Assembly (NCBI GenBank): GCA_016193285.1
Contig: JACPSL010000031.1
Span: forward strand, 1 to 62,095
DNA length: 62,095 nucleotides
Reading direction: 5' to 3'
DNA from: Candidatus Melainabacteria bacterium
Lineage (GTDB): Bacteria; Cyanobacteriota; Vampirovibrionia; 2-02-FULL-35-15
Shown here: piece after piece, positions 4,302 through 48,604 of the stretch
Numbering within the stretch: position 1 is the first letter of the stretch
Layout: each line of letters begins with the position of its first letter
Notes under the pieces: model-generated
The model's database searches: none
The model's input: only the letters and a program-made list of their open reading frames with translations
What the model was told of the DNA's origin: nothing
Program-made: the position numbers and the translations under genes

Positions 4302-5105
4302 TTATAAATTAATTAATTCTTTTGTAGCACTTTCTATATCTTCTTGTTTTATTAAACTTTCCCCAACAAGAAAAGAATAAACACCATGCTCTACTAATGA
4401 TTTAATATCTTCATTTGTAAATATTCCAGATTCACTAACAACAATTTTGTCTTTTAAATCCTTTTTATATTTTGTAATAAGATTTTTTGTTGTGTTTAAA
4501 TTTGTTTCAAATGTCTTTAGATCGCGGTTATTGATCCCAATCATTTGTGGATTTATATTTAATGCGATCTCCATCTCACGTTCATTGTGGATCTCAATTA
4601 AACAATCAATTTCATTTTCACATGCAATTTCATACAAATCACGCAATTGTAGAGACATGCCGCGGCATGTCTCTGCGATTAATAAAACACAATCTGCACC
4701 ATAATAAATTGATTCATAAATTTGATAAGGATCGATAATAAAATCTTTTTGTAAAACGGGTAAATCCACAACATTTTTTATTTCATGAATGTAATTTAAA
4801 TTACCCTGGAAATATTTTTCATCTGTTAAAACAGATAAACAACACGCACCACCATTTTTATATGCTTTTGCTATTTCTATGTGATTAAAATTCTTTTTTA
4901 TAATTCCTTTTGATGGTGATGCTTTTTTAATTTCTGCAATTAATGCAATTTGTTTTTTGTTGATTTTGGTTTTTAATGCCGTAGAGACGCAATTAATCGC
5001 GTCTCTACCAGGCATATTTTTTTTCAATCTGTCAAGAGATAATCTCTCTTTTGATTTTTCAATTTCTATTTTCTTATAGGCAATTATTTCTTCAAGGATG
5101 TTCAT
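4302..5105 (-). CDS. trpC: Indole-3-glycerol phosphate synthase with two repeat-derived insertions
   Basis: Catalyses ring closure of carboxyphenylaminodeoxyribulose phosphate to indole-3-glycerol phosphate in tryptophan synthesis. The TIM-barrel motifs IAEIKKASPSKG, VLQKDFIIDPYQI, IGINNRDLKTFE, VVSESGI and FLVGESLI are all present. At 267 residues it is slightly longer than typical. Two palindromic repeats are translated within it: one gives GRDAINCVST (residues 33-42, the linker before strand 1) and one gives residues 144-153 (around ETCRGMS). Both replace surface or linker sequence and leave the active-site motifs intact. The start overlaps the sat stop by four bases. Confidence 0.93.
   Translation of the reverse strand: MNILEEIIAYKKIEIEKSKERLSLDRLKKNMPGRDAINCVSTALKTKINKKQIALIAEIKKASPSKGIIKKNFNHIEIAKAYKNGGACCLSVLTDEKYFQGNLNYIHEIKNVVDLPVLQKDFIIDPYQIYESIYYGADCVLLIAETCRGMSLQLRDLYEIACENEIDCLIEIHNEREMEIALNINPQMIGINNRDLKTFETNLNTTKNLITKYKKDLKDKIVVSESGIFTNEDIKSLVEHGVYSFLVGESLIKQEDIESATKELINL
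4649..4676. repeat. Palindromic repeat (GTAGAGACG family) inside trpC
   Basis: A perfect 24-bp palindrome, AGAGACATGCCG joined to its reverse complement at 4651-4674, with the family's GT...C ends. It is translated in frame as part of trpC, residues 144-153. Confidence 0.85.
4981..5008. repeat. Palindromic repeat (GTAGAGACG family) inside trpC
   Basis: Arms GTAGAGACGC and GCGTCTCTAC enclose an 8-nt loop. It encodes residues 33-42 of TrpC, in the segment before the first conserved motif. Confidence 0.85.
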
Positions 5106-6262
5106 GTAGCGATTTTTTGTTTCATACCATCAATTAATATTTTAGCTATCTCTGGTCTTGTAAATTCTTCTGGCAACATTTCTCCGTTGCGTAACATCTC
5201 CCTGACTTTCGTTCCACTAAGAATTAAATGATTGCTTTTATCGTGTGGACATGTCTTGTAAGATGCCATTTCTCCACAAGCTTTACACCAGAAACTATGC
5301 TCAAAAAATATTGGAGTAATGCCAAGCTCATCTTTTTTAAATTCACTAAAGATTTTTTGTGCATCATAAGTCCCATAATAATTTCCAACACCTGCATGAT
5401 CACGTCCAACTATAAAATGAGTACAACCATAATTTTTTCTAATAATTGCGTGTAATATAGCTTCTCTAGGTCCTGCATATCTCATACTTGCTGGCATAAT
5501 GCATAAAAGTGTTCTATCTTTTGGAAAATATTTTTCTAAAATTGTCTGATAACACTTCATTCTAATTTCTGCTGGAATATCATCTCCTTTGGTCTCTCCC
5601 ATTGTTGGATGAAGCATTAACCCATCTACAGTTTCAAGAGCAACTCTTAAAAGATACTCATGAGCTCTATGAACTGGGTTTCTGGTTTGAAAAGCAACTA
5701 TTTGTTTCCATCCTTTTTCAAAAAATATTTCTCTTGTTCTTGCACACCCAAGATTGTATTCAGGGAATTCATCATACGTATGTTTTAAAACTTTTATTTC
5801 TCCAGCGAGACAATATTCGCCGGCTTCAAAAAGATACTTTACTGCAGGATGTTTTATATCAGTTGTTTTAAAAACAAGTTCAGCTTCTTTTTTTAAAATT
5901 GGTTGGTAAATTTCTTTTAAATTTAAAATCGCAACTGCTCTATTTAATTCATCTTTTAATGTAATTTTGTTTTGGTCTTTGATCTCTTTGTATGTCTCTT
6001 TATTTACTTGTAATGTAATAGGTATAGGCCAGACTAAACCATTTTTGAGCCTCATTGTTTCAATAATTTCATCGTAGTCTTCTTTTTCTACAAATCCTTT
6101 AAGTGGACTAAATGCACCAGTTGCAAGCATTTCAAGATCACATAAAACTTTTTTTGAAACAGTTATACTGATTAATTCCTTAGCTTCTTGAAAAAGTTCA
6201 TCTGGATTACCAGGAAAACAGTTAACTAATTCATTGCCATGAGGTAAGATTAATTTCATCAT
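5102..6262 (-). CDS. sat: Sulfate adenylyltransferase (ATP sulfurylase)
   Basis: Forms adenosine phosphosulfate from ATP and sulfate. The 386-residue monomeric-type enzyme has the nucleotidyl-transfer motif QTRNPVHRAHEY, HPTMGETKGDD, VGRDHAGVGNYYG and a zinc-type cluster CKACGEMASYKTCP near the C-terminus. Length equals that of bacterial Sat proteins. It is the first gene of the minus-strand unit sat-trpC-membrane protein, and its stop overlaps the trpC start. No aprAB, dsr or cysC genes are visible, so assimilatory use is more likely than dissimilatory, though that is not proven here. Start ATG; the preceding MM gives two possible starts 3 bp apart. Confidence 0.95.
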   Translation of the reverse strand: MMKLILPHGNELVNCFPGNPDELFQEAKELISITVSKKVLCDLEMLATGAFSPLKGFVEKEDYDEIIETMRLKNGLVWPIPITLQVNKETYKEIKDQNKITLKDELNRAVAILNLKEIYQPILKKEAELVFKTTDIKHPAVKYLFEAGEYCLAGEIKVLKHTYDEFPEYNLGCARTREIFFEKGWKQIVAFQTRNPVHRAHEYLLRVALETVDGLMLHPTMGETKGDDIPAEIRMKCYQTILEKYFPKDRTLLCIMPASMRYAGPREAILHAIIRKNYGCTHFIVGRDHAGVGNYYGTYDAQKIFSEFKKDELGITPIFFEHSFWCKACGEMASYKTCPHDKSNHLILSGTKVREMLRNGEMLPEEFTRPEIAKILIDGMKQKIAT

Positions 6263-6332
6263 AACTAATTAATTCTATCTTATCTTATACGCTGGAACCA
6301 ACTTTAAACTTCCCTTGTCAGAAATAACTACC

Positions 6333-7610
6333 ATGTCTAAGCAAGAAGATCTAACAAAAGTAACAATAATAACAATAGTAGCTTTGTGTATTCTCATCTT
6401 TAGCTTGTTTTGGCTAAAAGGGTATAAGCTTTACAGCGAGCAAAAAATTAAAGTTTACTTTGAAGATGTTAGTGGTCTTGAAGAAGGTGCAATTGTTAGG
6501 TGGAATGGTCTTAGAGTTGGTGTTGTAGAAAGTATCAAACCTATATTAAAAAACTCTAATAAAACCTCTCGTAAAATTAAAAGTGAGCTTATTAGTTTAG
6601 GTGAAAATGAATTAAAAGAAGCTAAAGAGCTAGAATTAAAAATTTCCACTGGCAAAAATAATTTAAAAGATAAAATTGAACAACTAAAAAACAAAGCTCA
6701 AACCCATATCCAACAAGGACTTGCTGAGGACCAACAGAAAGAAAAAGAAATTAGAAACCATGTAGAAGTAACACTTGTGATTACAAAAAAGAATGTACCA
6801 TTTGGTCCGCTTTCTTCAGTGAGTATTGTTCCTTCAGGACTTGTTGGGGAACAATTTGTAGAAATCTCATCTGTTATAAATAAAAAATCTTCACAAGTAG
6901 ACTTTAAGCCAATTTTTTTAACTCAAGAACCTATTCGCTTTGAACGCTTTTTAAAAGCAAACATTGAATCTTCAGAAGCCTTTAAAGAAGCTATAACAAA
7001 AATCAACAAGTTAATAAAAGAAGAAGATGTAGAACTACTTGCTTCAACAATTAAAGATGTTAGAGAAGTTGTTGTTAATGTAAATAAATTAATTGATAAT
7101 GCAAGTGTACTTTTAACTACTACAAGTACAAAACTAGAGCAACTAGCTACGAGTTCAAACTTACTTTCAACCAGCATAGTACAAGTAGGTGAAAATATAA
7201 ATAAAATAATTGGAGATGAGGCTGTACGTCAAGATATAAAAACTACAGCAAGTTCTTTAAATATAATTACTGATCAAGTTGCAAAATTACTTAATGAGCA
7301 AGGACTTGCAAAAGATATTTTAGAAATTAGTGAAACTGCTAACGCAACCTCTTTAGAATTATCAAACTTTATAAAAGACTTACGACAAACTCATGAAGAA
7401 TTAGAACTTCCAAAAGCAATTACAAATTTAAATTCCTTATCTGAAAAACTTGACAAGCTTACTGAAGAATTAAATAAAATAGTTGCAGATAAAGAATTTC
7501 AGGAAGATATTAAAGTTACAGCTCAAAAAGCAAGAGAGACAAGTGAAAACTTACAAAAGATGTCAAAAAAATTTAATAAGAGGTTTTTATTGTTTAGACT
7601 TTTGTTTTAA
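6333..7610 (+). CDS. MCE/MlaD-family lipid transport protein with coiled-coil insertion
   Basis: MCE proteins form periplasmic rings that carry phospholipids between membranes. There is one N-terminal membrane anchor, then the MCE barrel split in two: VYFEDVSGLEEGAIVRWNGLRVGVVESI before, and VEVTLVITKK...PSGLVGEQFVEISS after. About 70 charged helical residues are inserted between (roughly residues 73-142 from the ATG), which is not usual in MlaD. The C-terminal half is a long alpha-helical tail as in larger MCE proteins. I prefer ATG 6333; a TTG at 6315 in frame is the alternative. No MlaE or MlaF gene is adjacent. Confidence 0.85.
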   Translation: MSKQEDLTKVTIITIVALCILIFSLFWLKGYKLYSEQKIKVYFEDVSGLEEGAIVRWNGLRVGVVESIKPILKNSNKTSRKIKSELISLGENELKEAKELELKISTGKNNLKDKIEQLKNKAQTHIQQGLAEDQQKEKEIRNHVEVTLVITKKNVPFGPLSSVSIVPSGLVGEQFVEISSVINKKSSQVDFKPIFLTQEPIRFERFLKANIESSEAFKEAITKINKLIKEEDVELLASTIKDVREVVVNVNKLIDNASVLLTTTSTKLEQLATSSNLLSTSIVQVGENINKIIGDEAVRQDIKTTASSLNIITDQVAKLLNEQGLAKDILEISETANATSLELSNFIKDLRQTHEELELPKAITNLNSLSEKLDKLTEELNKIVADKEFQEDIKVTAQKARETSENLQKMSKKFNKRFLLFRLLF

Positions 7611-7745
7611 ATTCTAGCAAGTAAGAAATTCCTAATTCATTAGGACTATTTTTAATAGAATCCTTTAAAAAATTATTAAATTTTTAATAAAAGAAGCTTT
7701 TAAGGTTGATAATAAAGCTACCTCTAGTAAGGTGGATGAAAAATC

Positions 7746-8711
7746 ATGAATTACGTAAAAACAAAAATAAGAAAAAATATAAACAAAAATACAAATAGTC
7801 ATTTTTATGACAATCCTTATCTTGATATTGATTTAACTTGCGAAGGAGAAAAAAAAGAAAGAGAAGCAACAGTTCAAGAAGATAAAGACTCCATAAAATT
7901 TTACTTAAAGAAGCTAAGTTCCATTCAACTTTTAACTCACAAGGAAGAAATAGAGCTTGCCACGAAAGTAAAACAAGGTGACATTGAGGCAAAGAAAGAA
8001 CTAGCAAGAAGAAATTTAAGACTTGTGGTTTCAATAGCAAAAAGGTACATTAATCAAGGTTTATCATTTTTAGATTTAGTACAAGAAGGAAACCTTGGTT
8101 TAATGAAGACTGTAGAAAAGTTTGATGTAGACCGTGGTTATAAGTTTTCTACTTATGCTACGTGGTGGATTAAACAATCCATTACACGTGCTTTATCTGA
8201 CAAATCAAGAATAATAAGAATACCTGTTCATGTTGTAGAAACAATAAACAAACTTAAAAAATCAATCAGGGATCTAAGTCAAGCACTTGGCAGAGAACCA
8301 AAACAAAATGAGCTTGCAAAATTGCTTGATACTGATGCTAAAGATATTCAAAACATTACTAATTCAATGCAAGCTCTTATATCAACAGATGCTCCAATTG
8401 GTAAAAATAATGATGAAGCTGACTTACAGGAGCTTCTTGAAGATAAACTATATATTGAACCAGAAGATGCTTTAATAAATGAAGATTTAAAAGGAAATAT
8501 TGAAGATTCACTACTCTTGCTTAATCCAAAAGAAAAAAAAGTAGTAGAATTGCGTTTTGGTTTAAATGATGGTTTTAAAAAGACATTAAAAGAAGTAAGC
8601 CAAAAGATGGGAGTAAGCTACCCGTGTGCAAGACAGCTTTTAGCAAGCGCATTAAAAAAATTAAGAAATCCTGAAGTAAGTAATAAGTTAAAAGAGTATT
8701 TGTATAATTAA
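7746..8711 (+). CDS. Sigma-70 family RNA polymerase sigma factor, divergent region 4.2
   Basis: A 321-residue group 1/2-type sigma factor. Region 2 is canonical ([39 protein letters not shown]), so the -10 element should be read normally, and region 3 is recognisable. Region 4.2 reads [25 protein letters not shown], whereas the second sigma factor at 36912 and the family consensus have [11 protein letters not shown] in the recognition helix. The -35 contacts are therefore probably changed. Region 1.1 is absent or short. Start ATG with AAGGTGGAT upstream. Likely an alternative (group 2) sigma factor. Confidence 0.9.
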
Positions 8712-8758
8712 TTTTACAATATATTTGTTAAAGCAATAAAAGAAATGCTGAATACTAT

Positions 8759-8787
8759 TTGACATCCACGACTTGTTTTAATAAAAT
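8759..8787 (+). promoter_or_regulatory. Sigma-70 promoter for the FAH-family gene
   Basis: TTGACA (8759-8764), a 17-bp spacer and TAAAAT (8782-8787) lie 39 bp before a GTG start that has a GGAGG Shine-Dalgarno. This is the best consensus-like promoter in the window. Confidence 0.75.
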
Positions 8788-8825
8788 GAACAGGTTTATG
8801 TAATTTTATTCTATGGAGGAAGACA

Positions 8826-9767
8826 GTGAGTACAATTCAGAATCAACATTTTGTTTTATGTCGTTTTCAAATCCCTTATTATAATGAACCAAAAGTAGGA
8901 TTAGTTTTAGATAGAGAGGAAGGTGTAATTGGAGATTTAACACCTAAAGGAATTAACTCCATAGAACAGTTAGCAAAAATGAGTTCAGGACACATGTTAC
9001 AAGAACTTAGATTACTTTCAAAAACTAAACTACAAAGATTTGACGAAGGACGGTGTGCAGGTTTTTTAACTCCAATTGGTGAAAAACAGTCTGTATGGGC
9101 AGCAGGAGTTACCTATAAAAACAGTGTTCTTGCAAGAGAAGAAGAATCAGGTAGCAACATTTATGCAAATGTTTACCATGACGAGCGTCCTGAAGAATTT
9201 CCAAAAGCATTAAGTGGAAGAGATGTTGTAAGTCCTTATGACACAATTGGCATTCGTAGTGATTCAGACTGGAATGTTCCTGAACCAGAGCTTGTCATTG
9301 TTTTTAATTCAAAAGGTGGAATAGTTGGCTATACAATTGGAAATGATGTAAGCTCACGTGATATTGAAGGCAAGAATCCTCTTTATTTACCTCAAGCAAA
9401 AGTGTATGAAAATTCATTTGCAGCAGGTCCTGTTTTAGTTGTTGGTCCAAAAGAAGAAGAAGTAAAAACATGGAAGGTTAATTTAAAAATTTATAGAAAT
9501 GGAGAAACTATTTTTAATGGGGAAAGTACAGTTGGAAACATGAATCGTACTTTTACAGAGCTTAGAGACTGTCTTTTTAACTATAGTTCTGACTTCCACT
9601 ATGGTGTAGCTCTTTCTACAGGGACAGATCTTGTACCAGGGACACCAGAAAAAAGATTTACTCTGGAGCCTGATGATTTAGTTGAAATAAGTATTAGTGT
9701 AATAGGTACTTTAAAAAATAGAGTTGGAGTAATTAGGCCAAGGACAGATCTAGAACCTGTTGAGTAA
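8826..9767 (+). CDS. Fumarylacetoacetate hydrolase-family protein
   Basis: A 313-residue member of the FAH superfamily, whose enzymes hydrate, decarboxylate or cleave 2-oxo acids with a divalent metal. The domain runs from about residue 95 (VWAAGVTYKNS) through EPELVIVFNSKGGIVGYTIGNDVSSRDIEG, containing the conserved metal Glu pair and the GNDVSSRD motif. ARE...YANVYHDERPE upstream resembles 2-dehydro-3-deoxy-D-arabinonate dehydratase-like members, but the substrate is not determined by the sequence. GTG start with GGAGGAAGACA spacing. Its last 18 bp overlap the convergent threonine dehydratase gene. Confidence 0.85.
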   Translation: MSTIQNQHFVLCRFQIPYYNEPKVGLVLDREEGVIGDLTPKGINSIEQLAKMSSGHMLQELRLLSKTKLQRFDEGRCAGFLTPIGEKQSVWAAGVTYKNSVLAREEESGSNIYANVYHDERPEEFPKALSGRDVVSPYDTIGIRSDSDWNVPEPELVIVFNSKGGIVGYTIGNDVSSRDIEGKNPLYLPQAKVYENSFAAGPVLVVGPKEEEVKTWKVNLKIYRNGETIFNGESTVGNMNRTFTELRDCLFNYSSDFHYGVALSTGTDLVPGTPEKRFTLEPDDLVEISISVIGTLKNRVGVIRPRTDLEPVE

Positions 9768-10787
9768 TATTTCTCTTAAAATATCTATCTGTAAATTAGA
9801 GCCAGTTAAAACACAAACTACTTTTTTGCCTTGAAAAATTTCTTTGTTCTTAATTAGACCTGCTAGTGAAACAGCTCCTGCACCTTCAGCAAGAGTATGA
9901 CAATGTTCCAGTAAAAGTAAAATTGCAGCTTTAAGTTCTTCATCACTTACAAGAAAAATATCGTCTACATATTTTTGCATAATTTCATATGCATATGGAT
10001 AAACATTTCTTGTAGCTAATCCTTCTGCAAAAGTATTTAAATTTGGATAAGTAATTAATTTTTTTTGTTTAAAGCTATCATGAACAGCTGGTGCACCTGT
10101 TGATTGAACACCATAAATCTTAGGTAGGGGCTTGCTGCAGCAAGCCCCTACAGAGGATTTTTCTTTTAAAGCAATTGCTGAACCACAAACTCCACTTCCT
10201 CCGCCAACAGCAGTTATAAAACAATCTACCTCAGGCAAGTCTTCATATACTTCAAGCCCAATAGTTCCTACTCCTTCAAAAAGTTCTCGTTGTTCAACTG
10301 AATGAACATAGTAATATCTTTCTTCACGAGCTAATTTTTTACAATACTCCCATGTTTCAAAAACATCTTTCCCATAAAAAATCACTTTTGCACCAAAATC
10401 TTTAATTGCTTGTACCTTCGATGGATTTGATCCGCAAGGACATGCAATTATAACAGGCAGATTAAATAAATTTCCTGCATAGGCAATTGATTGACCATGA
10501 TTACCTGTAGAGCCTGCCAGTAGAGGCGTTGCGCGCAATGCCTCTATACCAATCTCATCGATTAATTTACAAACAAAATTAATTCCACCACGAACTTTAA
10601 ATGCATTGGTTGGATTACAATTCTCATACTTTATGTATACTTTTGCACCAGTCAAATTACTTAATGAAGTTGAATGTAAAAGAGGAGTTTTTAAGAGATA
10701 TTTTTTTAGTCTATCTCTAGCAGCTTCAATACCTGTAATTGTTGGCAGATTTAATGTTCTAACAGCCATAAAACTAAATTTTAACAA
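9750..10787 (-). CDS. Threonine/serine dehydratase-like PLP enzyme with two repeat insertions
   Basis: A fold-type II PLP enzyme of the threonine dehydratase family, converting threonine or serine to the 2-oxo acid and ammonia. NAFKVRGG holds the PLP lysine, GSTGNHGQSIAYA the substrate loop, AVGGGSGVCGS the phosphate-binding glycines, and the end LTGSNL the family's C-terminal Ser/Gly region. It has no ACT domain at 345 residues. Two palindromes are translated in it: residues 80-90 (IEALRATPLL region) and 213-222. Start is uncertain: TTG at 10787 or ATG at 10769. Diaminopropionate lyase or serine racemase are less likely alternatives. Confidence 0.85.
   Translation of the reverse strand: MLKFSFMAVRTLNLPTITGIEAARDRLKKYLLKTPLLHSTSLSNLTGAKVYIKYENCNPTNAFKVRGGINFVCKLIDEIGIEALRATPLLAGSTGNHGQSIAYAGNLFNLPVIIACPCGSNPSKVQAIKDFGAKVIFYGKDVFETWEYCKKLAREERYYYVHSVEQRELFEGVGTIGLEVYEDLPEVDCFITAVGGGSGVCGSAIALKEKSSVGACCSKPLPKIYGVQSTGAPAVHDSFKQKKLITYPNLNTFAEGLATRNVYPYAYEIMQKYVDDIFLVSDEELKAAILLLLEHCHTLAEGAGAVSLAGLIKNKEIFQGKKVVCVLTGSNLQIDILREILLNRF
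10124..10151. repeat. Palindromic repeat (GTAGGGGC family) inside the dehydratase gene
   Basis: A perfect 28-bp palindrome: GTAGGGGCTTGCTG followed by its reverse complement. Translated in frame (residues 213-222). Confidence 0.9.
10520..10549. repeat. Palindromic repeat (GTAGAGGCG variant) inside the dehydratase gene
   Basis: Arms TAGAGGC and GCCTCTA with an inner TTGCGCGCAA palindrome; one G-T mispair. Translated in frame (residues 80-90), just before the conserved GNHG loop. Confidence 0.85.
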
Positions 10788-10916
10788 AAAAAAGATAATT
10801 AAACTGCTATCATTAGTCTAAGTTTTTGTGTTAAAGAAGAAAGTTACTTAGTCTGTTGTAAGAACTGTTTGTATTTTTTAAAATAAAAAATTTAAAGATC
10901 TTATAAACGGTGAAAA

Positions 10917-13568
10917 ATGGATAAGCTTAAAGTAAACCCACCAGGTATAGATAGCAAAACCACTACTTGTCCTGTTACACCGGCTGGCTCACCTAACAGT
11001 AGATCTGAAACTGTAACAAGGTATGACAGTGATTCACAAACGTCTAACCTTACTTCTGAAAGAGTACTTGGAAATCTAACTAGACTCCTCAAAGAACAAT
11101 TCAATAGATCTAAACCAGTTTTATCTTTAAAGGAATATACAGGCCTTGTTCTTGAAAGACCAGATTTACGACTAAGACCAATTTCAAAATATGCACTAGA
11201 TGCAATTAACTATGTAGAAAGAGAATATGGTCCAGGTAAAACTGTAAGAGTTTTAGGTCGCGACTTAAAAGAATACAAGTTTTTAGAGATGCCTTGGAAA
11301 TCACAATCACTTCAGAATATTGAGAGATTTAGAGGACACTTACTTTTTGTAGATAGATTTATTCGCAAGCTAGAAGCTTTTTCTACAAAACCTCACCCTG
11401 ATCGTGCAGTTTTAATTCATGGTCCAAACTCAACCGGTAAATCATCTTTTCTTGATAAACTTTTTGCCTTACTGGAATATTATTCACATACAGATGAAGG
11501 AGCATTGTATACATTATCATGGGCTTTTGATGACAAGCTTTCTGAATTTGGATTTCACTCAAATAAAAATGGATATTCTTCTGAAGAATTAATAAATCCA
11601 CAAGATGTTATAGTTACAATTCTGTCTAATAAGAATTCAATTCCATTTTTTGTGCTTGATATAGAACAAAGAGCAGAAATACTTGATCTGTTAGAGGCTA
11701 GTGGGAAACTTCCGAGTGGTTTTAATACAGATTTTGTTCTTTCCTATAAATTGGACGATATGTCTAAAAAAATCTTTGATGGACTACTAACACTATATGG
11801 AGGTAATCCAGATAGCGTCTACAGACATATGCAAGTAGTTAGATGGTACTTTTCAAGCACAGGTGACAGAGGTTTAGTATTAAAACAACCAACAGATGCA
11901 CCAAATACAATATTACAACAGATTACACCAACGACTAATTGGGAAAGACTTCCTCATCAGATTATAAATGTTTTATCAAATGCAGGATTACATACACTTG
12001 AAGGTCCACTTTCTCAAGCTAACCATGGGATTATTTACTACGATGACATGTTTAGAGGAATAGAAAGACATAGAGGTCTTAATGACTATTTATGGATACT
12101 TAGACTTGCAGAAAAGGGTGAGACTACTGTAGCATCTACAGATGGTATAAATACTACAAATGAACAATTTGATATTTTAACTATTGGTACTGCAAACGAC
12201 AATAGACTTAGAGATATTGAATCAATTGATGGAGAAAATTGGCAAGCATTACAACCGAGACTCGAACTTTTAGAAATCGGACATGAACGTTGTTATGGAT
12301 ATGTTGCTGAACTATTTAGAGATAAACTTCCTCTAATTATTCCACCAAATACAAAAAGGCATGTCTCTCCTAATGTTATTGATACTCTTGCACTTTGGGT
12401 AACAATGACTCATTTATTTCCATACGGGAATGAAGCTTACTACAACTCCAGTCTGCATGATACATCTGTTCCTCTTAGAGAAGAAGCTAAGCAAACACTT
12501 AAAACTCTTTTGAGAGGAATGTCTCCACTTGAAATAGCTCTTTTGTATCAAGATGCAAACTTAAATGTTTTTGAATTAGATCCATCAAAAGTAAAATATG
12601 ATTCACAAGCTCAAAAATTATTACATGATAATGCAAGATATAAAACTGATGAATATAACCTTAGTAGCAGCGAGCATAGTTTAGATTTTTATGAAGGTTG
12701 CATAGGTCTTCCAACAAGAACAGCAGAAGATATACTAACTCGTGCAGCTCAGTTAAACCAAAATGAATCACTTACTGTAATTGAACTATTTAGAGCAGTT
12801 GATGATGCAATTAGGCGTGGCTTTAGGTTTGAAATGGAAAGGAATGAACTAGCAACAAGAGTTAACTCAGAAGCTGCAAAAAAAGACAAACAAGCTTCTC
12901 TAGGAAGAACTAACTTTACATTGCCTAAGTTTCCCTCTAGTCAGGACTTACTTACTCAAGCTAAAGAATATGCAAAAAGAAAAATTCGCTTTGATGTATG
13001 CAAAGCAATTAGTCTTATAAAAACAAATGAAGAAATAAAACATGAATTAAAGAGATACTTGGCACACTTAAAAGCATTGCTTAGAAGTGAGAATGTTCCT
13101 TCTGAATGGAGAGAACCAAAACACCAGCTTAAACCCAATGAACAGATTTTAGAATTGCTAGAAAATATTTTTGAAATAGAGGAACGTTACAGAGACAAAT
13201 TTAGAAGAGACACTTTAAGCGAAATAGGTAGTTGGCAACTTACAAATTCAGATAGAACTGCAATTGATCATATAGACGAAGTCTTACCTAATTTAACTAA
13301 AAAACTTGAAGCAGCATATGCTAAAGAAAATGCTAAAGATGTAAAAAATTTCCTTACTGATCTTAGAGAACTTCTTGAATCTAAGAAATCAGCACAAATA
13401 GAAAATGACGAGGCAAGAAGTAGTATTCTCCATAATGGAATTATAGAATTACAAAAAATGGGATACACAGAAGAAATCATGCTAAAAGAGATCTTTTTTG
13501 CTTTTGATAGTGATTACTTACTTTACCTAGATAAATTAATCCAATCAAAAAGTAGCTATTCTATCTAA
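10917..13568 (+). CDS. PrkA-family AAA+ ATPase/serine protein kinase, enlarged
   Basis: An 883-residue protein related to PrkA/YeaG (about 640 residues). Walker A is GPNSTGKS (169-176). The Walker B/sensor part reads GIIYYDDMFRGIERHRG and GETTVASTDGINTTNEQFDILTIGTAN, matching PrkA's GxxE(M/D)F and THE-NE block. The C-terminal portion retains GLPTRTAEDIL and a terminal ELQKMGYTEE helix like PrkA's MMEKGYT. The N-terminal 70 residues are polar and Pro/Thr/Ser-rich, and about 170 extra residues are spread through the kinase part. The usual partners yeaH and spoVR are not adjacent. Kinase activity is inferred from the family. Confidence 0.75.
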   Translation: MDKLKVNPPGIDSKTTTCPVTPAGSPNSRSETVTRYDSDSQTSNLTSERVLGNLTRLLKEQFNRSKPVLSLKEYTGLVLERPDLRLRPISKYALDAINYVEREYGPGKTVRVLGRDLKEYKFLEMPWKSQSLQNIERFRGHLLFVDRFIRKLEAFSTKPHPDRAVLIHGPNSTGKSSFLDKLFALLEYYSHTDEGALYTLSWAFDDKLSEFGFHSNKNGYSSEELINPQDVIVTILSNKNSIPFFVLDIEQRAEILDLLEASGKLPSGFNTDFVLSYKLDDMSKKIFDGLLTLYGGNPDSVYRHMQVVRWYFSSTGDRGLVLKQPTDAPNTILQQITPTTNWERLPHQIINVLSNAGLHTLEGPLSQANHGIIYYDDMFRGIERHRGLNDYLWILRLAEKGETTVASTDGINTTNEQFDILTIGTANDNRLRDIESIDGENWQALQPRLELLEIGHERCYGYVAELFRDKLPLIIPPNTKRHVSPNVIDTLALWVTMTHLFPYGNEAYYNSSLHDTSVPLREEAKQTLKTLLRGMSPLEIALLYQDANLNVFELDPSKVKYDSQAQKLLHDNARYKTDEYNLSSSEHSLDFYEGCIGLPTRTAEDILTRAAQLNQNESLTVIELFRAVDDAIRRGFRFEMERNELATRVNSEAAKKDKQASLGRTNFTLPKFPSSQDLLTQAKEYAKRKIRFDVCKAISLIKTNEEIKHELKRYLAHLKALLRSENVPSEWREPKHQLKPNEQILELLENIFEIEERYRDKFRRDTLSEIGSWQLTNSDRTAIDHIDEVLPNLTKKLEAAYAKENAKDVKNFLTDLRELLESKKSAQIENDEARSSILHNGIIELQKMGYTEEIMLKEIFFAFDSDYLLYLDKLIQSKSSYSI

Positions 13569-14599
13569 TATACAATCATCCCATCCCCATAGCTATAAAA
13601 CCTATATTGCTCTTTAATAGCTTCAGTATAAATTTTTCTAACATTCTCCCACCCAATAAATGTACTAACTAAAACTAAAAGTGTTGTTTTTGGCAGATGA
13701 AAGTTTGTAATTAATGCATCTATGATTTGAAATTTAAAGTTCGGGGTAATATACAAACCGTTTAAACCACCAGGTTTTTTAATTGTTGCAGCATATTCCA
13801 ACGCTCTTACAGTAGTAGTTCCACAAGCAATTATTCTTTTTTTGTTTTTTTTAGCTTTAAGAATTTTGTCCCAGACCTCACTTTCAATATAAAAAAACTC
13901 AGGCATTAATTTATGTTCTCTAATGTCATTAGATCGAATTGGCAAAAATGTTCCAGGACCAACATGCAAAGTTATATAAAATATTTCAACCCCAATTTTT
14001 TTAATTTTATCTAATAACTCAGGAGTAAAATGCAAAGCCGCTGTTGGTGCTGCAACAGCGCCAGGTTCTTTTGCAAAAACAGTCTGATAACGATCAATAT
14101 CTATCTTTTCAGGTTTTCTTTTTATGTAAGGAGGTAGAGGTGTTTCGCCTATATTGTTTAAGATGGTTTCTAGATCTTGGTGAGATTGAAATCTTATTGT
14201 TTCGGTATCGATAACGTTGATTGTCTGTAGAGACGTTGCACGCAACGTCTCTACACCAATTAAATGTTTCTTCGGACTTGCTAAAATCTTCCATGTTAAA
14301 TTATCAGGACTAATAGGGCTTACAAGCAAGATTTCGATTTCTTTATCTTTTTTTGTTTTACAATAAAATCTTGCTGGAATTACTTTTGTGTTGTTTAAAA
14401 CTAAAACATCATTTTCAGTAAGTAAGTCAGGTAGTTCATAAAACTTACAATGTGAAAGTAGAGACGTTGTGCACAACGTCTCTACTTTCCTGTAACAAAG
14501 TAATCTAGATTCATCACGTTTTTCTAATGGATATTGTGCAATTAAATCTTTTGGCAGAGAATAATTGTATGTTTCAAGATTATATAAGTCTTCAACCAT
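13565..14599 (-). CDS. queA: S-adenosylmethionine:tRNA ribosyltransferase-isomerase with two repeat insertions
   Basis: Transfers and isomerises the ribosyl group of AdoMet onto preQ1 in tRNA, making epoxyqueuosine. Motifs include YSLPKDLIAQYPLEKRDESRLL, VLNNTKVIPARF, PGAVAAPTAALHFTPELL, LHVGPGTFLPI, CGTTTVRALE and TNFHLPKTTLLVLVS. The length (344) is normal although two palindromes are translated within it: residues 39-48 (VETLCTTSLL) and 116-125. The stop overlaps the convergent prkA-like gene by 4 bp. The neighbouring glycosyltransferase is divergent, 4 bp away. Confidence 0.95.
   Translation of the reverse strand: MVEDLYNLETYNYSLPKDLIAQYPLEKRDESRLLCYRKVETLCTTSLLSHCKFYELPDLLTENDVLVLNNTKVIPARFYCKTKKDKEIEILLVSPISPDNLTWKILASPKKHLIGVETLRATSLQTINVIDTETIRFQSHQDLETILNNIGETPLPPYIKRKPEKIDIDRYQTVFAKEPGAVAAPTAALHFTPELLDKIKKIGVEIFYITLHVGPGTFLPIRSNDIREHKLMPEFFYIESEVWDKILKAKKNKKRIIACGTTTVRALEYAATIKKPGGLNGLYITPNFKFQIIDALITNFHLPKTTLLVLVSTFIGWENVRKIYTEAIKEQYRFYSYGDGMIVY
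14227..14254. repeat. Palindromic repeat (GTAGAGACG family) inside queA
   Basis: 28 nt: arms GTAGAGACGTTGC and GCAACGTCTCTAC, one central mismatch. Translated in frame, residues 116-125. Confidence 0.9.
14454..14489. repeat. Perfect 36-bp palindrome inside queA
   Basis: The core 14458-14485 is GTAGAGACGTTGTG plus its reverse complement. Pairing extends through GAAA/TTTC on both sides, giving a perfect 36-bp palindrome. Translated in frame, residues 39-48. Confidence 0.9.
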
Positions 14600-16252: not shown

Positions 16253-17448
16253 TAAGTTAATCGTTTTACAATTATAGGATTCATCCGATTTATTCGGTGA
16301 ATCCTATAGAACGTGAAAAGTGATCAACGGAAGCTCAAGCTTGTCTTGAGCATAAAAAATAACAAGCTACAAAGGGCATACGGTGGATACCTTGGCACCA
16401 GCAGCCGATGAAGGACGTAGTAAGCTACGAAAAGTTGCGGTAAGCTGCTAACAAGCTACGACCCGCAAGATTCCGAATAGGGAAACCTGGTTCGAGTTAT
16501 ATCGAACCATTGCTAACTGAATTCATAGGTTAGTGAAGGTAAGTCTGCGAATTGAAACATCTTACGTAGCAGAAAGAAAAGAAAACAAATCAGTGATTCC
16601 CAAAGTAGCGGCGAGTGAAATGGGAAGAGCCTAAACCAATTAGCTTGCTAATTGGGGTTGTAGGACTGCATTTAGTACTTGCAAGGATAGTTGAACAAAG
16701 TTGGAAAGCTTGACCAAAGAAGGTGATAGTCCTGTAAACAAAATCTAAGCAAGGCGAGCAGTATCCTGAGTAAATCGGGGCACGTGAAACCCTGATTGAA
16801 GCTACCAGGACCATCTTGGTAAGGCTAAATACTGACTGGTGACCGATAGTGTACAAGTACAGCGATGGAAAGGTGAAAAGAACCCCGGGAGGGGAGTGAA
16901 ATAGAACATGAAACCGTATGCTTACAAGCAGTGGGAGGATAAGTAATTGTCTGACCGCGTGCCTGTTGAAGAATGAGCCGGCGAGTTAGTATGTCTAGTT
17001 TGGTTAAAGAGTGATATCTGGAGCCAAAGCGAAAGCGAGTCTGAATAGGGCGATTTTATTAGACATATTAGACGCGAACCTTGGTGATCTAACCATGGCC
17101 AGGTTGAAGCACAAGTAACATTGTGTGGAGGACCGAACCTATTAGTGTTGAAAAACTATTGGATGAGTTGTGGTTAGGGGTGAAATGCCAATCGAACCAA
17201 GATCTAGCTCGTTCTCCCCGAAATGTATTGAGGTACAGGGTTAGATTAAAGCTTTGTGGAGGTAGAGCACTAGTTCGGTAAGGGTGGTGAATAACCATAC
17301 CAAATCGAGTTAAACTCCGAATACCATTAAAGTGATATCTAGCACTGAGACGATGAGTGATAAGATTCACCGTCAAGAGGGGAATAGCCCAGACCACCAA
17401 CTAAGGTCCCTAAGTTAATGCTAAGTGACAAAGGAGGTGGGATTACTT

Positions 17449-17485
<37 letters not shown>

Positions 17486-18314
17486 AAAAGAGTGCGTAAC
17501 AGCTCACTGGTCAAGTGATTCTGCGCCGAAAATGTCCGGGGCTAAAGCATTATACCGAAGTTGTGGCTCAGCAATTTTTTTAAATTGTTGGGGGTAGGGG
17601 AGCGTTGTATTTTAGGATGAAGCTAAGTTGTAAAACTTGGTGGACAAAATACAAGTGAGAATGTCGGCTTGAGTAGCGAAAACATTGGTGAGAATCCAAT
17701 GCACCGAAAGCCTAAGGATTCCCACGGAAGGTTCGTCCACGTGGGGTTAGTCGGGACCTAAGCTGAGGCTGAAAAGCGTAGGTGATGGATAGCAGGTTGA
17801 TATTCCTGCACTATTAAGTAGTCGTTATAGGAACATTGGGACGTAGGAGGTTAGGTTGTGGCGGTTAATGGATTCCGCTCCAAGCGTGTAGGTAGTCACT
17901 GCAGGCAAATCCGCAGTGGCGCTATAACCTGAGGCGTAATGGTAATTGTCTACGGACAAGAAGCAACTCACACCACACTAACAAGAAAAGCAGTGTTTCA
18001 AGATTATTTAATACCCGTACCAGAAACCGACACAGGTAGGCTGGTAGAAAATACTAAGGTGCGCGAGATAACTCTCTCTAAGGAACTCGGCAAAATGCCC
18101 TCGTAAGTTTGCAAGAAGAGGGACTGTACAGTATGTAAGAAATTTACTTTCTGAAGTACAGTGCAGTGACACAAGGCAGACCCAAGCGACTGTTTAACAA
18201 AAACACAGGTCCCTGCTAACACATAAGTGGATGTATAGGGGCTGACACCTGCCCAGTGCTGGAAGGTCAAGGGAGTTGGTTAGGAGCAATCCAAAGCTAG
18301 CAACCAAAGCCCCA

Positions 18315-19084
<770 letters not shown>

Positions 19085-19588
19085 TGGTGTAACGATTTGG
19101 GTACTGTCTCGGAGAGAGACTCGGCGAAATAGATTTATCTGTGAAGAAGCGGATTTGGTGTGCCAGGACAGAAAGACCCTATTGAGCTTTACTGTAGGCT
19201 GGAATTGGTCGCGGGCGCAAGATACGTAGCATAGTTGGGAGACTTTGAGGCTTTACTTCTGGGTAGAGCGGAGTCAACAGTGAAATACCAATTTTTTTAC
19301 TCCTGCGTTCTAACCGAATGCTGTTATCCAGCATCGGGAAAGTTCCTGTCGGGCAGTTTGACTGGGGCGGTCACCTCCTAAAAAGTAACGGAGGTGCGCA
19401 ATGGTTCCCTCAGGCTGGTCGGAAATCAGCCGTTGAGTGTAAAAACATAAGGGAGCTTGACAGCAAGACAGACATGTCGAGCTGGTACGAAAGTAGGCTT
19501 TAGTGATCCGGTGGTTCCGCATGGAAGGGCCATCGCTCATCGGACAAAAGTTACCATAGGGATAACAGGCTGATCTCCCCCAAGAGTC

Positions 19589-19630
<42 letters not shown>

Positions 19631-19649
19631 TATCCTGGGGCGGTAGTAC

Positions 19650-19680
<31 letters not shown>

Positions 19681-19689
19681 ACGGCACGT

Positions 19690-19725
<36 letters not shown>

Positions 19726-20012
19726 ATATCCGGCATACCCGAAAGATATTTGAGAGGAGACTTCCTTAGTACGAGAGGACCGGGAAGTACAGACCTCTGG
19801 TTTACCAGTTGTCACGCCAGTGGCATACGCTGGGTAGCCATGTCTGGAGTGGATAAGTGCTGAAAGCATATAAGTACGAAGCCCACCTCAAGATGAGATA
19901 TCTCATACCACAAGGTAGTAAGATCTGCGGAAGACTACCGCGTTGATAGGCAGCAGGTCTAAGTGTAGTGATACACTCAGCCAAGCTGTACTAATAGATC
20001 GAGGGCTTGTTT

Positions 20013-20037
20013 TTTTCCTCTAGACCACAAAGGGATC
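20013..20037 (+). repeat. 3' arm of the 23S processing stem
   Basis: TTTTCCTCTAGACCACAAAG and following bases are complementary to 16228-16252 with only one or two mismatches. Confidence 0.8.
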
Positions 20038-20655: not shown

Positions 20656-20684
20656 GTAGAGACGTACCACTGGTGCGTCTCTAC
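20656..20684. repeat. Palindromic repeat (GTAGAGACG family), intergenic
   Basis: Arms GTAGAGACG and CGTCTCTAC around an imperfect ACCACTGGT centre, 21 bp before yjbQ. It may also act as a transcript hairpin after the small membrane ORF. Confidence 0.85.
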
Positions 20685-23248: not shown

Positions 23249-24328
23249 ATGTTCTCTCAAATCAAACAAAAGATCCTAAACAAAGAAAGAATAACTTTTG
23301 AAGAAGGAATTGCACTTTATAAATCAAATGACATTTTAAAAATTGGTGAACTTGGTAAATTAGCTCGTGAAATTAAATTAGGAAAAGAAAAATCAAAATG
23401 GATTTACTGGAATAAAAACTTACACTTAAATCCTACTAATGTTTGTATTGGCCACTGTAATTTTTGTGCATTTGCAAGGCTGCCAAATGAAGAAGGAGCA
23501 TATACTTACTCAATAGAAGAAGCACTTCAACATGTTGAAAGAGGTGTCAAAGAAAGTGCTACTGAAGTTCATATTGTAGGTGGTTTAAATCCTAAAGCTT
23601 CTTTGCCTTACTATATTGAGCTGTTAAAAGTAATTAAAAAATATTATCCAAGACTTCACATAAAAGCTTTTACTGCAATTGAAATTGATTTTTTTAGCAA
23701 GCTTAAAAAACTTAGTAACCTTGAAACCTTGAAACTTCTCATTGAAGCTGGTCTGGATAGTATGCCTGGCGGTGGTGCAGAAATATTTTCAAAGGTAGTA
23801 AGAGATGAGACTTGTCCAGATAAGCTGCCTGCAGAAAAATGGCTTGAGATACATGGTATTGCCCATAGTCTTGGTTTAAAGTCAAATGCAACAATGCTTT
23901 GTGGGATTGGAGAAAAAGTAAAAGATAGAGTTGATCACTTGCTAAGACTTAGAGAGCAACAAGATAAATCAAAAGGCTTTCAAGCATTTATTCCACTTAG
24001 CTGTCATTATGAGGATACTGAAATAAAAAATAAGGTGCGGTCACTAACTGCTTTTGATGAGTTAAAAAATATTGCTATTTCAAGAATTATGCTTGATAAC
24101 TTTGATCATATAAAAGCTTACTGGATTCAGCTTGGTATAGGTCTTGCACAAGTTGCACTTAATTTTGGAGCAGATGATTTAGATGGCACGGTTCAAGAAG
24201 AAAGTGTTACTTATGCTGCTGGTGCTAGTAAAAGAGGACTTAAAAAGGATTTTATACAAAAACTAATTGAAGATGCTGGTTATATACCTGTTGAAAGAGA
24301 CACTGTCTATAACGTTTTAGCGGTATAA
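23249..24328 (+). CDS. mqnE: Aminodeoxyfutalosine synthase (menaquinone futalosine pathway)
   Basis: A radical SAM enzyme that joins 3-[(1-carboxyvinyl)oxy]benzoate and AdoMet-derived adenosyl to form aminodeoxyfutalosine. The cluster motif is NVCIGHCNFCAF (CxxxCxxC). PGGGAEIFSKVVRDETCPDKLP, HSLGLKSNATMLCGIGE, HIKAYWIQLG and GADDLDGT are MqnE-type motifs. The 359-residue length is normal. A tandem CCTTGAAA repeat (23717-23738) is translated as SNLETLKL. It implies menaquinone made by the futalosine route. No other mqn gene is in the window. Confidence 0.9.
   Translation: MFSQIKQKILNKERITFEEGIALYKSNDILKIGELGKLAREIKLGKEKSKWIYWNKNLHLNPTNVCIGHCNFCAFARLPNEEGAYTYSIEEALQHVERGVKESATEVHIVGGLNPKASLPYYIELLKVIKKYYPRLHIKAFTAIEIDFFSKLKKLSNLETLKLLIEAGLDSMPGGGAEIFSKVVRDETCPDKLPAEKWLEIHGIAHSLGLKSNATMLCGIGEKVKDRVDHLLRLREQQDKSKGFQAFIPLSCHYEDTEIKNKVRSLTAFDELKNIAISRIMLDNFDHIKAYWIQLGIGLAQVALNFGADDLDGTVQEESVTYAAGASKRGLKKDFIQKLIEDAGYIPVERDTVYNVLAV
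23717..23738. repeat. Tandem CCTTGAAA repeat inside mqnE
   Basis: AACCTTGAAACCTTGAAACT is a head-to-tail octamer repeat translated in frame. The same unit in reverse (TTTCAAGGTTTC) occurs in recG at 30785. Confidence 0.55.
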
Positions 24329-36807: not shown

Positions 36808-36835
36808 GTAGGGGCAAGTGTCCACTTGCCCCTAC
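36808..36835. repeat. Palindromic repeat (GTAGGGGC family), intergenic
   Basis: Arms GTAGGGGCAAGTG and CACTTGCCCCTAC with a 2-nt centre. Located 12 bp after the coiled-coil gene. Confidence 0.9.
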
Positions 36836-36911: not shown

Positions 36912-37835
36912 ATGGCATTACTTAAAAACAAGATTGATATTGATATGGAAGATGAAACATTTTTAACTTGTGAGGAAAGTGAAGAAGAAACTAAAACTCT
37001 TCCACTCACTGATGATTTAGTCAGAGTTTACTTACGTGAGATTGGTAGGATGTCTGTTCTAGGATCAGAGGCTGAATTAGAGCTTGCAAAGAAAGTTCAA
37101 GTTGGAGATGAAAAAGCAAAACAAGAGTTAGTAATGCATAACTTAAGATTAGTAGTTTCCATAGCAAAGAAATATCTAAATAGAGGAATGTCATTTCTTG
37201 ATTTAATTCAAGAAGGTAATCTTGGTCTTATGAAAGCAGTTGAAAAGTTTGATCCAGATCGTGGTTATAAATTTTCTACTTATGCTACTTGGTGGATTAG
37301 ACAAGGCATTACAAGGTCATTATCTGACAAGTCAAGAACAATTAGACTTCCAGTCCATATGGTTGAAATAATTAGCAAGTTAAAAAAAGCAATTAAAAAA
37401 CTAACTGATAAGTCAGGCAACTTTCCTTCTTGTGAAGCTCTTGCTTGTGAAGTAGATATGGATATTAATAAAATTAAAGAAGTTATTCAAATTATGGAAG
37501 TACCTGTTTCTTTAAATTCTCGTGTAAATAATGAAGAAGAAGGAGATCTTGAGGACTTCATTAGTGATGATGAAAACCTAACTCCTGAGCAATTGACAAA
37601 TTGGATCTTGCTTGGAATGGATATAAATAAAGCACTTAAAAAGCTAACCATGAAAGAAGCAGCTGTAATTAGATTACGTTTTGGTTTGGATTGTGGAGAG
37701 CAAAGAACACTTGAAGAAGTTGGAAAAATTTTAGGTGTAACAAGAGAAAGAGTTAGACAACTAGAACACCGTGCTCTAAAAAAACTCCGGGAAAATAATT
37801 TTTGTGAAAACTTAAAAGATTATTTTGTTGCATAA
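36912..37835 (+). CDS. Sigma-70 family RNA polymerase sigma factor (group 1/2)
   Basis: 307 residues. Region 1.2/2: [75 protein letters not shown]. Region 3 follows, then a canonical region 4.2 [26 protein letters not shown]. It lacks the acidic region 1.1 expected of a large RpoD, so it could be the housekeeping factor of a cyanobacterium-like lineage (SigA is short there) or a group 2 factor. AAGGAG Shine-Dalgarno. A hairpin precedes it. Confidence 0.93.
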
Positions 37836-47296: not shown

Positions 47297-48604
47297 ATGG
47301 CTGGTAATAAAACCTATAAACAAAGAACATATCTTGATCCAATTCATGGGCCTATTGAACTAAACCTAAATGATTCAACTGACAAACTACTTGCAAAGAT
47401 TATAGACAGCAAGGAATTTCAAAGACTTAGAAGAATCAAACAAATGGGATTAGGCTGGTTTACTTTTCATGGTGCAGAACATACTAGGTTTGGTCATAGT
47501 TTAGGAACTTTATATATTGCAAGACAAATGTTAAATCACTTGTCAAAAAGTTTTCCAGAAATACATTCACATAAAAAAGAAATCTTGATATCAGCACTAC
47601 TACATGATATTGGTCATGGTCCTTTTAGTCATACATCAGAAAAGTTTACAAAATTTAATCATGAAGACTGGACAGAAAAAATTGTTTTAAGTAATTCAGA
47701 AGTTAATTCAATACTTAAAAAGCACGGTAAAAATTTACCAAGAAAAATCACTAAACTTTTAAGGCATAAAGAAACAAAAACTTACTTAAGCCAGATTATT
47801 TCAAGTTATATAGATTGTGACAGGTTAGATTATCTCCTTCGAGATTCTTATTATGTAGGTGTTCCGTACGGACTTACAGGTTCAGATAGGATAATCTCAT
47901 CGCTAGAAGTTGACAAAGATAAAATTGTTATAAATGAAAGTATTGGCTTGGATGCTGTGATTCATTATTTACATGCAAGATATTCAATGTACAAACAAGT
48001 GTATCAGCATAAAAAAAACCTAGCTTGCGATTTTTTATTAAAAAAAATTATTCAAAGGGCCTGTCGTAGAGGAAAAGTTACCTCTCCTCTACGAGATTGG
48101 TTAAACATTGATAATTTGCCAATTGAAAAAATAAATATAGATTCTTTTATAGAGATAGATGATTACTTATTAATTTCAAGCATACAAAAATGGTCAGAGG
48201 GAAATTCAGGAGACAAAATTTTGAGCACATTATCAAACTCTTTTATCACAAGAAAATTATTTAAGTCGTTAGAGTTCCGACGCAAAGTTTCTAAGGAAAG
48301 GAAAAATGAAATTCTGGAAAAAGTTAAAAAAATCGCTAAAGCAAAAAACTTTGATCCAAATTATTACGTAGGGATAGAACATTCTGCTTCTACACCTTAT
48401 GAACCTTATAAGGCTTTAAGTAAGACAACTGATAAAGCAATTTTTATAAAACAAAAAAATGGTAAAGTAAAAGAACTTTCTCAGGTTTCAGGTTTAGTAA
48501 AAGCTCTAAGTCAAGAAAACGTTGTAAAAACATGTCTTATATTTGCACCTGAACTTGAAGATGACATAAATCAAATTAAAGAATTTAGAGAATTGTTCAA
48601 ATAA
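47297..48604 (+). CDS. HD-domain phosphohydrolase (dGTPase/SAMHD1-like)
   Basis: 435 residues. HD-domain metal motif: HTRFGHSLGTLYIA (first His), LLHDIGHGPFSHTSE (HD pair) and SYIDCDRLDYLLRDSYYVG (final Asp), as in SAMHD1/dGTPase-type nucleotide hydrolases. YLDPIHGPIELN near the start is typical of the bacterial YwfO-like branch. It probably hydrolyses nucleotides. A palindrome is translated around residues 256-265 (RRGKVTSPLRD) outside the HD core. Confidence 0.88.
   Translation: MAGNKTYKQRTYLDPIHGPIELNLNDSTDKLLAKIIDSKEFQRLRRIKQMGLGWFTFHGAEHTRFGHSLGTLYIARQMLNHLSKSFPEIHSHKKEILISALLHDIGHGPFSHTSEKFTKFNHEDWTEKIVLSNSEVNSILKKHGKNLPRKITKLLRHKETKTYLSQIISSYIDCDRLDYLLRDSYYVGVPYGLTGSDRIISSLEVDKDKIVINESIGLDAVIHYLHARYSMYKQVYQHKKNLACDFLLKKIIQRACRRGKVTSPLRDWLNIDNLPIEKINIDSFIEIDDYLLISSIQKWSEGNSGDKILSTLSNSFITRKLFKSLEFRRKVSKERKNEILEKVKKIAKAKNFDPNYYVGIEHSASTPYEPYKALSKTTDKAIFIKQKNGKVKELSQVSGLVKALSQENVVKTCLIFAPELEDDINQIKEFRELFK
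48064..48094. repeat. Palindromic repeat inside the HD hydrolase gene
   Basis: Arms TCGTAGAGGA and TCCTCTACGA around an 11-nt loop; a GTAGAGG variant of the palindrome family, translated in frame. Confidence 0.7.

Follow-up and report, generated by a model that had tools for sequence, protein, structure and literature searches.

Repetitive extragenic palindromes (REPs) lie outside genes by name and by usual habit. Double-foot REPs are known from subclass 2.4 of the REP-associated tyrosine transposases (RAYT or TnpAREP; Bertels group 4), whose description, in the part available, gives REP feet 5' GT[AG]G and 3' C[TC]AC, the transposase motifs NH[IFV]H, WQ and YIxNNP, and REPs both flanking the tnpAREP gene and in frame inside it, between the HUH and Tyr motifs, with members recorded in Cyanobacteria and other phyla (Quentin 2018, PMC6006769). 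Intragenic GTAG REPs have likewise been reported in frame in conserved genes, at most two per gene, with Opitutus terrae as the richest genome; in the accessible part of that report, the GTAG is unpaired at one end, REPs are mostly intergenic, dimeric inserts of 20-30 codons are frequent and replacement of host sequence is not described (Di Nocera et al. 2013, PMC3733652). Here, we analyzed the 62,095-nt stretch presented above (the window; it is contig C31 of the genome G000, which spans 1.81 Mb over 39 contigs), in which palindromes bounded by GTAG and CTAC are translated inside enzyme genes such as trpC and queA. These palindromes are almost certainly double-foot REPs. The fuller statement, that they are of the subclass 2.4 kind, are moved by a RAYT, enter genes and mostly replace part of their target, is in our judgment probable. 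The kind of element is known; what looks new is the degree, with genes as the main home, and the replacement-like mode. A search among papers open without subscription, in the parts available, returned neither a genome whose REPs are mostly genic nor a case of replacement instead of insertion.

Six palindromes of the strict pattern GTAGRGRC-N-GYCYCTAC were observed in the window, against none in 100 shuffles, and a separate palindrome scan returned the same six with three additional degenerate copies. These nine palindromes, seven genic (in trpC, a PALP-family enzyme, queA and an HD hydrolase) and two intergenic, had all been listed by an earlier reading of the sequence (the original prediction) and were found where it had placed them (Table 1). 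All four host open reading frames (ORFs) match Pfam, which backs the IGPS, PALP, Queuosine_synth and HD identities given there. No stop occurs within any of the seven genic copies, so that all can be read through, as had been claimed. The aligned copies share common arms with sharp ends at GTAG and CTAC, and their differing cores are still palindromic. The copies had also been placed in linkers, which holds for some of them: in a structure model of QueA (mean predicted local distance difference test score 82), residues 39-48 fall for the most part within a loop of low confidence, but residues 116-125 would include a beta-strand of good confidence, and one PALP copy stands right before the GSTGNHG motif.

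The strict pattern, which had been proposed for a genome-wide search, misses 3/9 window copies. It matched 61 times in the whole of G000, compared to 0 for the reversed pattern used as control. A model search, which scored 150 of 350 candidates and counted both strands, returned at least 149 matches. We also applied a relaxed finder to 45 stretches of G000 (427,869 bases including the window) picked around strict or model matches, and counted 112 copies in those stretches, with none in the reversed control. Of these, 93 (50/61 strict and 43/51 relaxed) lie in ORFs of at least 90 aa, called greedily, a procedure that by design counts no copy in the stop phase as genic. The genic share of 0.83 is slightly lower than the coding share of the stretches, 0.907 (P 0.009), and is compatible with the 0.867 expected if one of the three phases is lost (P 0.26). 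The expectation that most copies are genic is thus borne out in G000, and there is no genome-wide excess of intergenic copies. Almost all host ORFs (71/74) match Pfam, with 67/70 outside the window at 1e-5, including the RAYT described below, and 4/4 inside it. The hosts include enolase, AlaRS, LeuRS, GluRS, ArgRS, an EngA-type GTPase, MnmA- and MnmE-type proteins, and the TruB, UvrC, UvrD, ATP synthase delta, dihydrodipicolinate synthase and NAD synthase families. The LdpA and DUF561 families, which are cyanobacterial, are also among them. Nine relaxed copies are clustered in 14 kb at L042 (G000:C7:25800-39807), and a RAYT fragment with a stop lies nearby (C7:39110-39265).

Codon phase was analyzed for the 155 genic copies of G000 and of two relatives in the same family (f1), G009 and G006. 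The first base of the element occupies codon position 1 in 90 copies and position 2 in 65. None begins at position 3, partly because ORF calling excludes the stop phase; a start there would yield a stop in 142/155 copies. All 15 genic 27-mers use the second phase, compared to 50/139 of the 28- and 29-mers (P 8e-7). The other phase of the 27-mers seems open too, yet all 15 use only one.

We identified one intact RAYT in G000, a 194-aa ORF on contig C18 (L017:1138-1722) with the motifs NHVH, WQ (as WQPRFYE) and YIVNNP, as in subclass 2.4. A perfect palindrome lies in frame inside this ORF between NHVH (HUH) and YIVNNP (Tyr), again as described for that subclass, and the feet also agree with it. 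The protein scores above the cut-off of Pfam Y1_Tnp, reaches 59 bits with the NCBIfam REP-associated tyrosine transposase model (cut-off 80) and matches the solved TnpArep 4er8 weakly (E 0.28); one of its segments is 67% identical to a segment in a Candidatus Melainabacteria genome (L305). Together with the LdpA and DUF561 hosts, this segment hints at a Melainabacteria/Vampirovibrionia lineage. A second Y1 protein, IS200-like (C29:9954, 163-aa ORF), carries no such palindrome peptide in its listed sequence, and the C18 RAYT was taken as the candidate. Among 16 near-full RAYT genes of f1, a count that leaves out several fragments, a double-foot palindrome lies between HUH and Tyr in 13 (in one of them a foot base is changed) and is imperfect in 3; three of the 16 genes have an internal stop, and the internal palindromes vary between paralogues. 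In a set of 80 named RAYT loci that spans many phyla, 74 palindromes were counted, compared to 1 in the reversed loci. A palindrome lies between HUH and Tyr in 43 of the 80, and a flanking one within 400 bp in 16; where internal and flanking palindromes are both present, the arms are the same in 6/13, as read from the listing. In the RAYT of L166 (G006:C10), part of the internal palindrome is repeated in tandem behind it (peptide RDVACNVST-ACNVST), which suggests growth by slippage. Taken together, the motifs and the REP type point to subclass 2.4.

The abundance of the element follows the presence of the transposase across 40 genomes: a RAYT is present in 10/11 genomes with 10 or more model matches (in one, G004, as a remnant) vs 3/29 with fewer (P 3e-6). 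Model matches, lower bounds since at most 150 candidates were scored per relative, range from 2 to at least 149 among family members. The strict pattern is present in 44/117 genomes of the phylum, where very low counts mean little because some genomes have 1-2 matches to the reversed control, and it was found in 0/47 listed genomes of family f5 of the same class. In a separate count for G009, 2 hits were obtained with the reversed control vs 62. The relatives speak against gene dominance as a general claim: only 44/81 copies are genic in G009 and 18/27 in G006, a significant depletion in genes in both (P 1e-14 and P 4e-4), and the near-random genic spread is therefore a trait of G000 and not of the whole family. 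In G081, a genome of the same phylum with 139 strict copies and our single control of this sort, the copy lies in an ORF at 3 of the 15 loci looked at and outside at 12, vs 50/61 genic in G000 (Fisher P 1e-5).

We then compared host proteins with their orthologues, for which a clean insertion would give a net gain of 9 to 10 codons. Against the relative G002, 34 comparisons were made, of which 30 were well anchored and 21 of these without element-like sequence; among G000, G009 and G006, the corresponding numbers were 98, 87 and 23. The 44 usable comparisons, over 35 copies, gave net changes from -10 to +10 codons with a median of +3, and only 1/35 copies reached +9 or more. Near-perfect palindromes never did so (0/22), and three 27-mers, which could enter in frame cleanly, gave +1, +2 and +6. 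The G002 alignments also supplied control windows, 1,182/1,346 of which showed a net change of 0. At the DNA level, net changes of +9 and +24 bp at genic sites were seen among the 28 pairs compared between G009 and G006, in which several sites gained 75-83 bp. Since only one copy reaches the size of a clean insertion, host codons appear to be replaced rather than simply added to. The original prediction had described in-frame inserts in conserved enzymes; the frame and the hosts stand, and the orthologues favor replacement of codons over plain insertion. In QueA, the residues encoded by the copies are absent from element-poor G002 and from families outside f1.

These observations suggest the following mechanism. 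The elements would be non-autonomous repeats of 27-29 bp, GTAG...CTAC, that probably move as single-stranded hairpins via the HUH/Tyr transposase whose gene carries a copy, the role of this RAYT and the hairpin intermediate being what we infer. In the G000 lineage, they would enter genes nearly as often as the coding share of the DNA predicts, and copies would persist if they fall in either stop-free phase and the length of the gene changes by a multiple of three. Most copies would replace a few to about 30 bp of target instead of adding a clean 28 bp, presumably losing the target in the same event. A more specific version, which we put forward tentatively as a fair possibility, is overwriting: in one event, the palindrome would take the place of a similarly long piece of target. 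Genes would thus be tolerable targets, and a selfish REP would make roughly length-conserving cassettes of 9-10 residues in essential proteins, including secondary-structure elements.

Several observations weigh against this scheme. Unlike a typical REPtron, and unlike subclass 2.4 as far as described, whose REPs also flank tnpAREP (PMC6006769), the G000 RAYT lacks palindromes in the 600 bp to each side of it. In our view, flanking REPs are not a strict requirement for membership, because a REP inside the gene itself is listed for the subclass. A further difference from the available description is that the G000 copies lie mainly in other genes, where orthologues suggest replaced codons. The rule that the core of the RAYT is the commonest core failed in G000: of 224 half-arms, CGTTGCA accounts for 15, CGTTGCG for 14 and CGCGATT, that of the RAYT, for 13. 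G002 has 15 model matches without a RAYT, and G004 has 65 with a remnant only. Terminal microhomology at the target was not found over 35 copies, where end identities differed little from the values for shuffled elements (0.435 vs 0.384 over the left 4 bases, 0.360 vs 0.391 over the right 8, given without P value); single examples that had looked good, in a QueG-type gene of G009 and the VGAL stretch of TrpC, were not supported over the whole set. Finally, 64/87 anchored three-genome comparisons and 9/30 against G002 were set aside as element-like by an arbitrary likeness cut-off of 17.

The replacement could also be only apparent, if a clean RAYT-type insertion of 27-29 bp were followed by compensating deletions alongside and selection restored frame and length. 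The orthologues come from other genera or from species about 80% identical in DNA, which leaves time for later deletions; 4/35 copies are near clean at +8 codons and one is at +10, and at the DNA level intergenic copies often have the large net gains given above. However, a clean 28-bp insertion shifts the frame, so that an essential gene would have to pass through a null state, and the near-perfect palindromes and the 27-mers show equally small net changes. We regard this explanation as possible but rather doubtful.

Alternatively, selection might retain genic copies because they act as RNA hairpins, bind proteins or encode useful peptides. Palindromy is maintained though the cores differ, and in some cases a copy at the same site recurs across genera, as in the gene of the phosphoenolpyruvate (PEP)-mutase family at L066 (G000 and G006) and QueA (G000 and G001). 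Arm-to-arm copying can also maintain palindromy, which weighs against retention for function, as do the variation in copy number within the family, the unrelated host genes and the link between abundance and RAYT presence. Functional retention is thus very unlikely.

Rickettsia palindromic elements, which add residues to proteins, had been considered the best parallel. Both are palindromic DNA translated in frame within conserved protein genes (RPE-4, RPE-6 and RPE-1), but in the available account RPE-4 and RPE-6 have CGTC tags and no associated transposase (PMC3733652), and RPE-1 is longer. With GTAG/CTAC ends and a RAYT carrying a copy, membership was rejected in favor of double-foot GTAG..CTAC REPs, and any kinship is extremely improbable. 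Chance or artefact is ruled out by the absence of strict matches in the shuffles and reversed controls and by the same element family in other genomes.

Overall, G000 carries a REP-type element mainly in housekeeping proteins, in contrast to the loci looked at in G081. If replacement is its mode, mobile DNA could vary essential proteins while keeping the reading frame, and the standing question of how RAYTs move REPs becomes directly testable in this system.

Table 1. Palindromes of the window and the genes that host them (net changes in codons relative to the protein named).
Feature	Position	Strand	Evidence	Remarks
trpC (indole-3-glycerol phosphate synthase)	4302..5105	-	ORF; Pfam IGPS 2.3e-86	hosts two copies
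Palindrome in trpC	4649..4676			degenerate; peptide AETCRGMSLQ; net +2 vs solved IGPS
Palindrome in trpC	4981..5008			peptide GRDAINCVST; net 0 vs solved IGPS
Pyridoxal phosphate enzyme, threonine dehydratase/serine racemase type (PALP enzyme)	9750..10787	-	Pfam PALP 1.5e-73; PDB matches	hosts two copies
Palindrome in PALP enzyme	10124..10151			peptide VGACCSKPLP; net +8 vs 2gn0 and 1v71
Palindrome in PALP enzyme	10520..10547 (approximate in the scan)			degenerate; peptide IEALRATPLL; abuts GSTGNHG on its upstream side; net +5
queA	13565..14599	-	Pfam Queuosine_synth 1.2e-113	hosts two copies
Palindrome in queA	14227..14254			peptide VETLRATSLQ, residues 116-125; net 0 vs G002; part predicted beta-strand
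Palindrome in queA	14454..14489			28-bp element 14458-14485 within 36-bp inverted repeat; peptide VETLCTTSLL, residues 39-48; net +5 vs 1vky, +4 vs 1wdi
Intergenic palindrome, 29 bp	20656..20684			upstream of UPF0047 gene
Intergenic palindrome	36808..36835			between coiled-coil ORF and sigma-70 family gene
HD-domain hydrolase	47297..48604	+	Pfam HD 3.2e-12	hosts one degenerate copy
Palindrome in HD hydrolase, 27 bp	48066..48092 (first located as 48064-48094)			degenerate; peptide RRGKVTSPLR

Other features of the window were also observed. The 23S ribosomal RNA (rRNA) gene (16360-20014) has 3,655 bases vs 2,925 positions in the model, and the ORF 18436-18984 inside it is a LAGLIDADG endonuclease, which fits an rRNA intron, as expected. 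A 300-base stretch is present in two copies that are 74% identical (7942-8241 and 37069-37368). Because the second sits in a sigma-70 family gene, the ORF 7746-8711 that holds the first is probably a second gene of that family. In addition, a 34-base inverted repeat (23708-23741 and 30780-30813), 85% complementary, is made of GTTTCAAG-like units.

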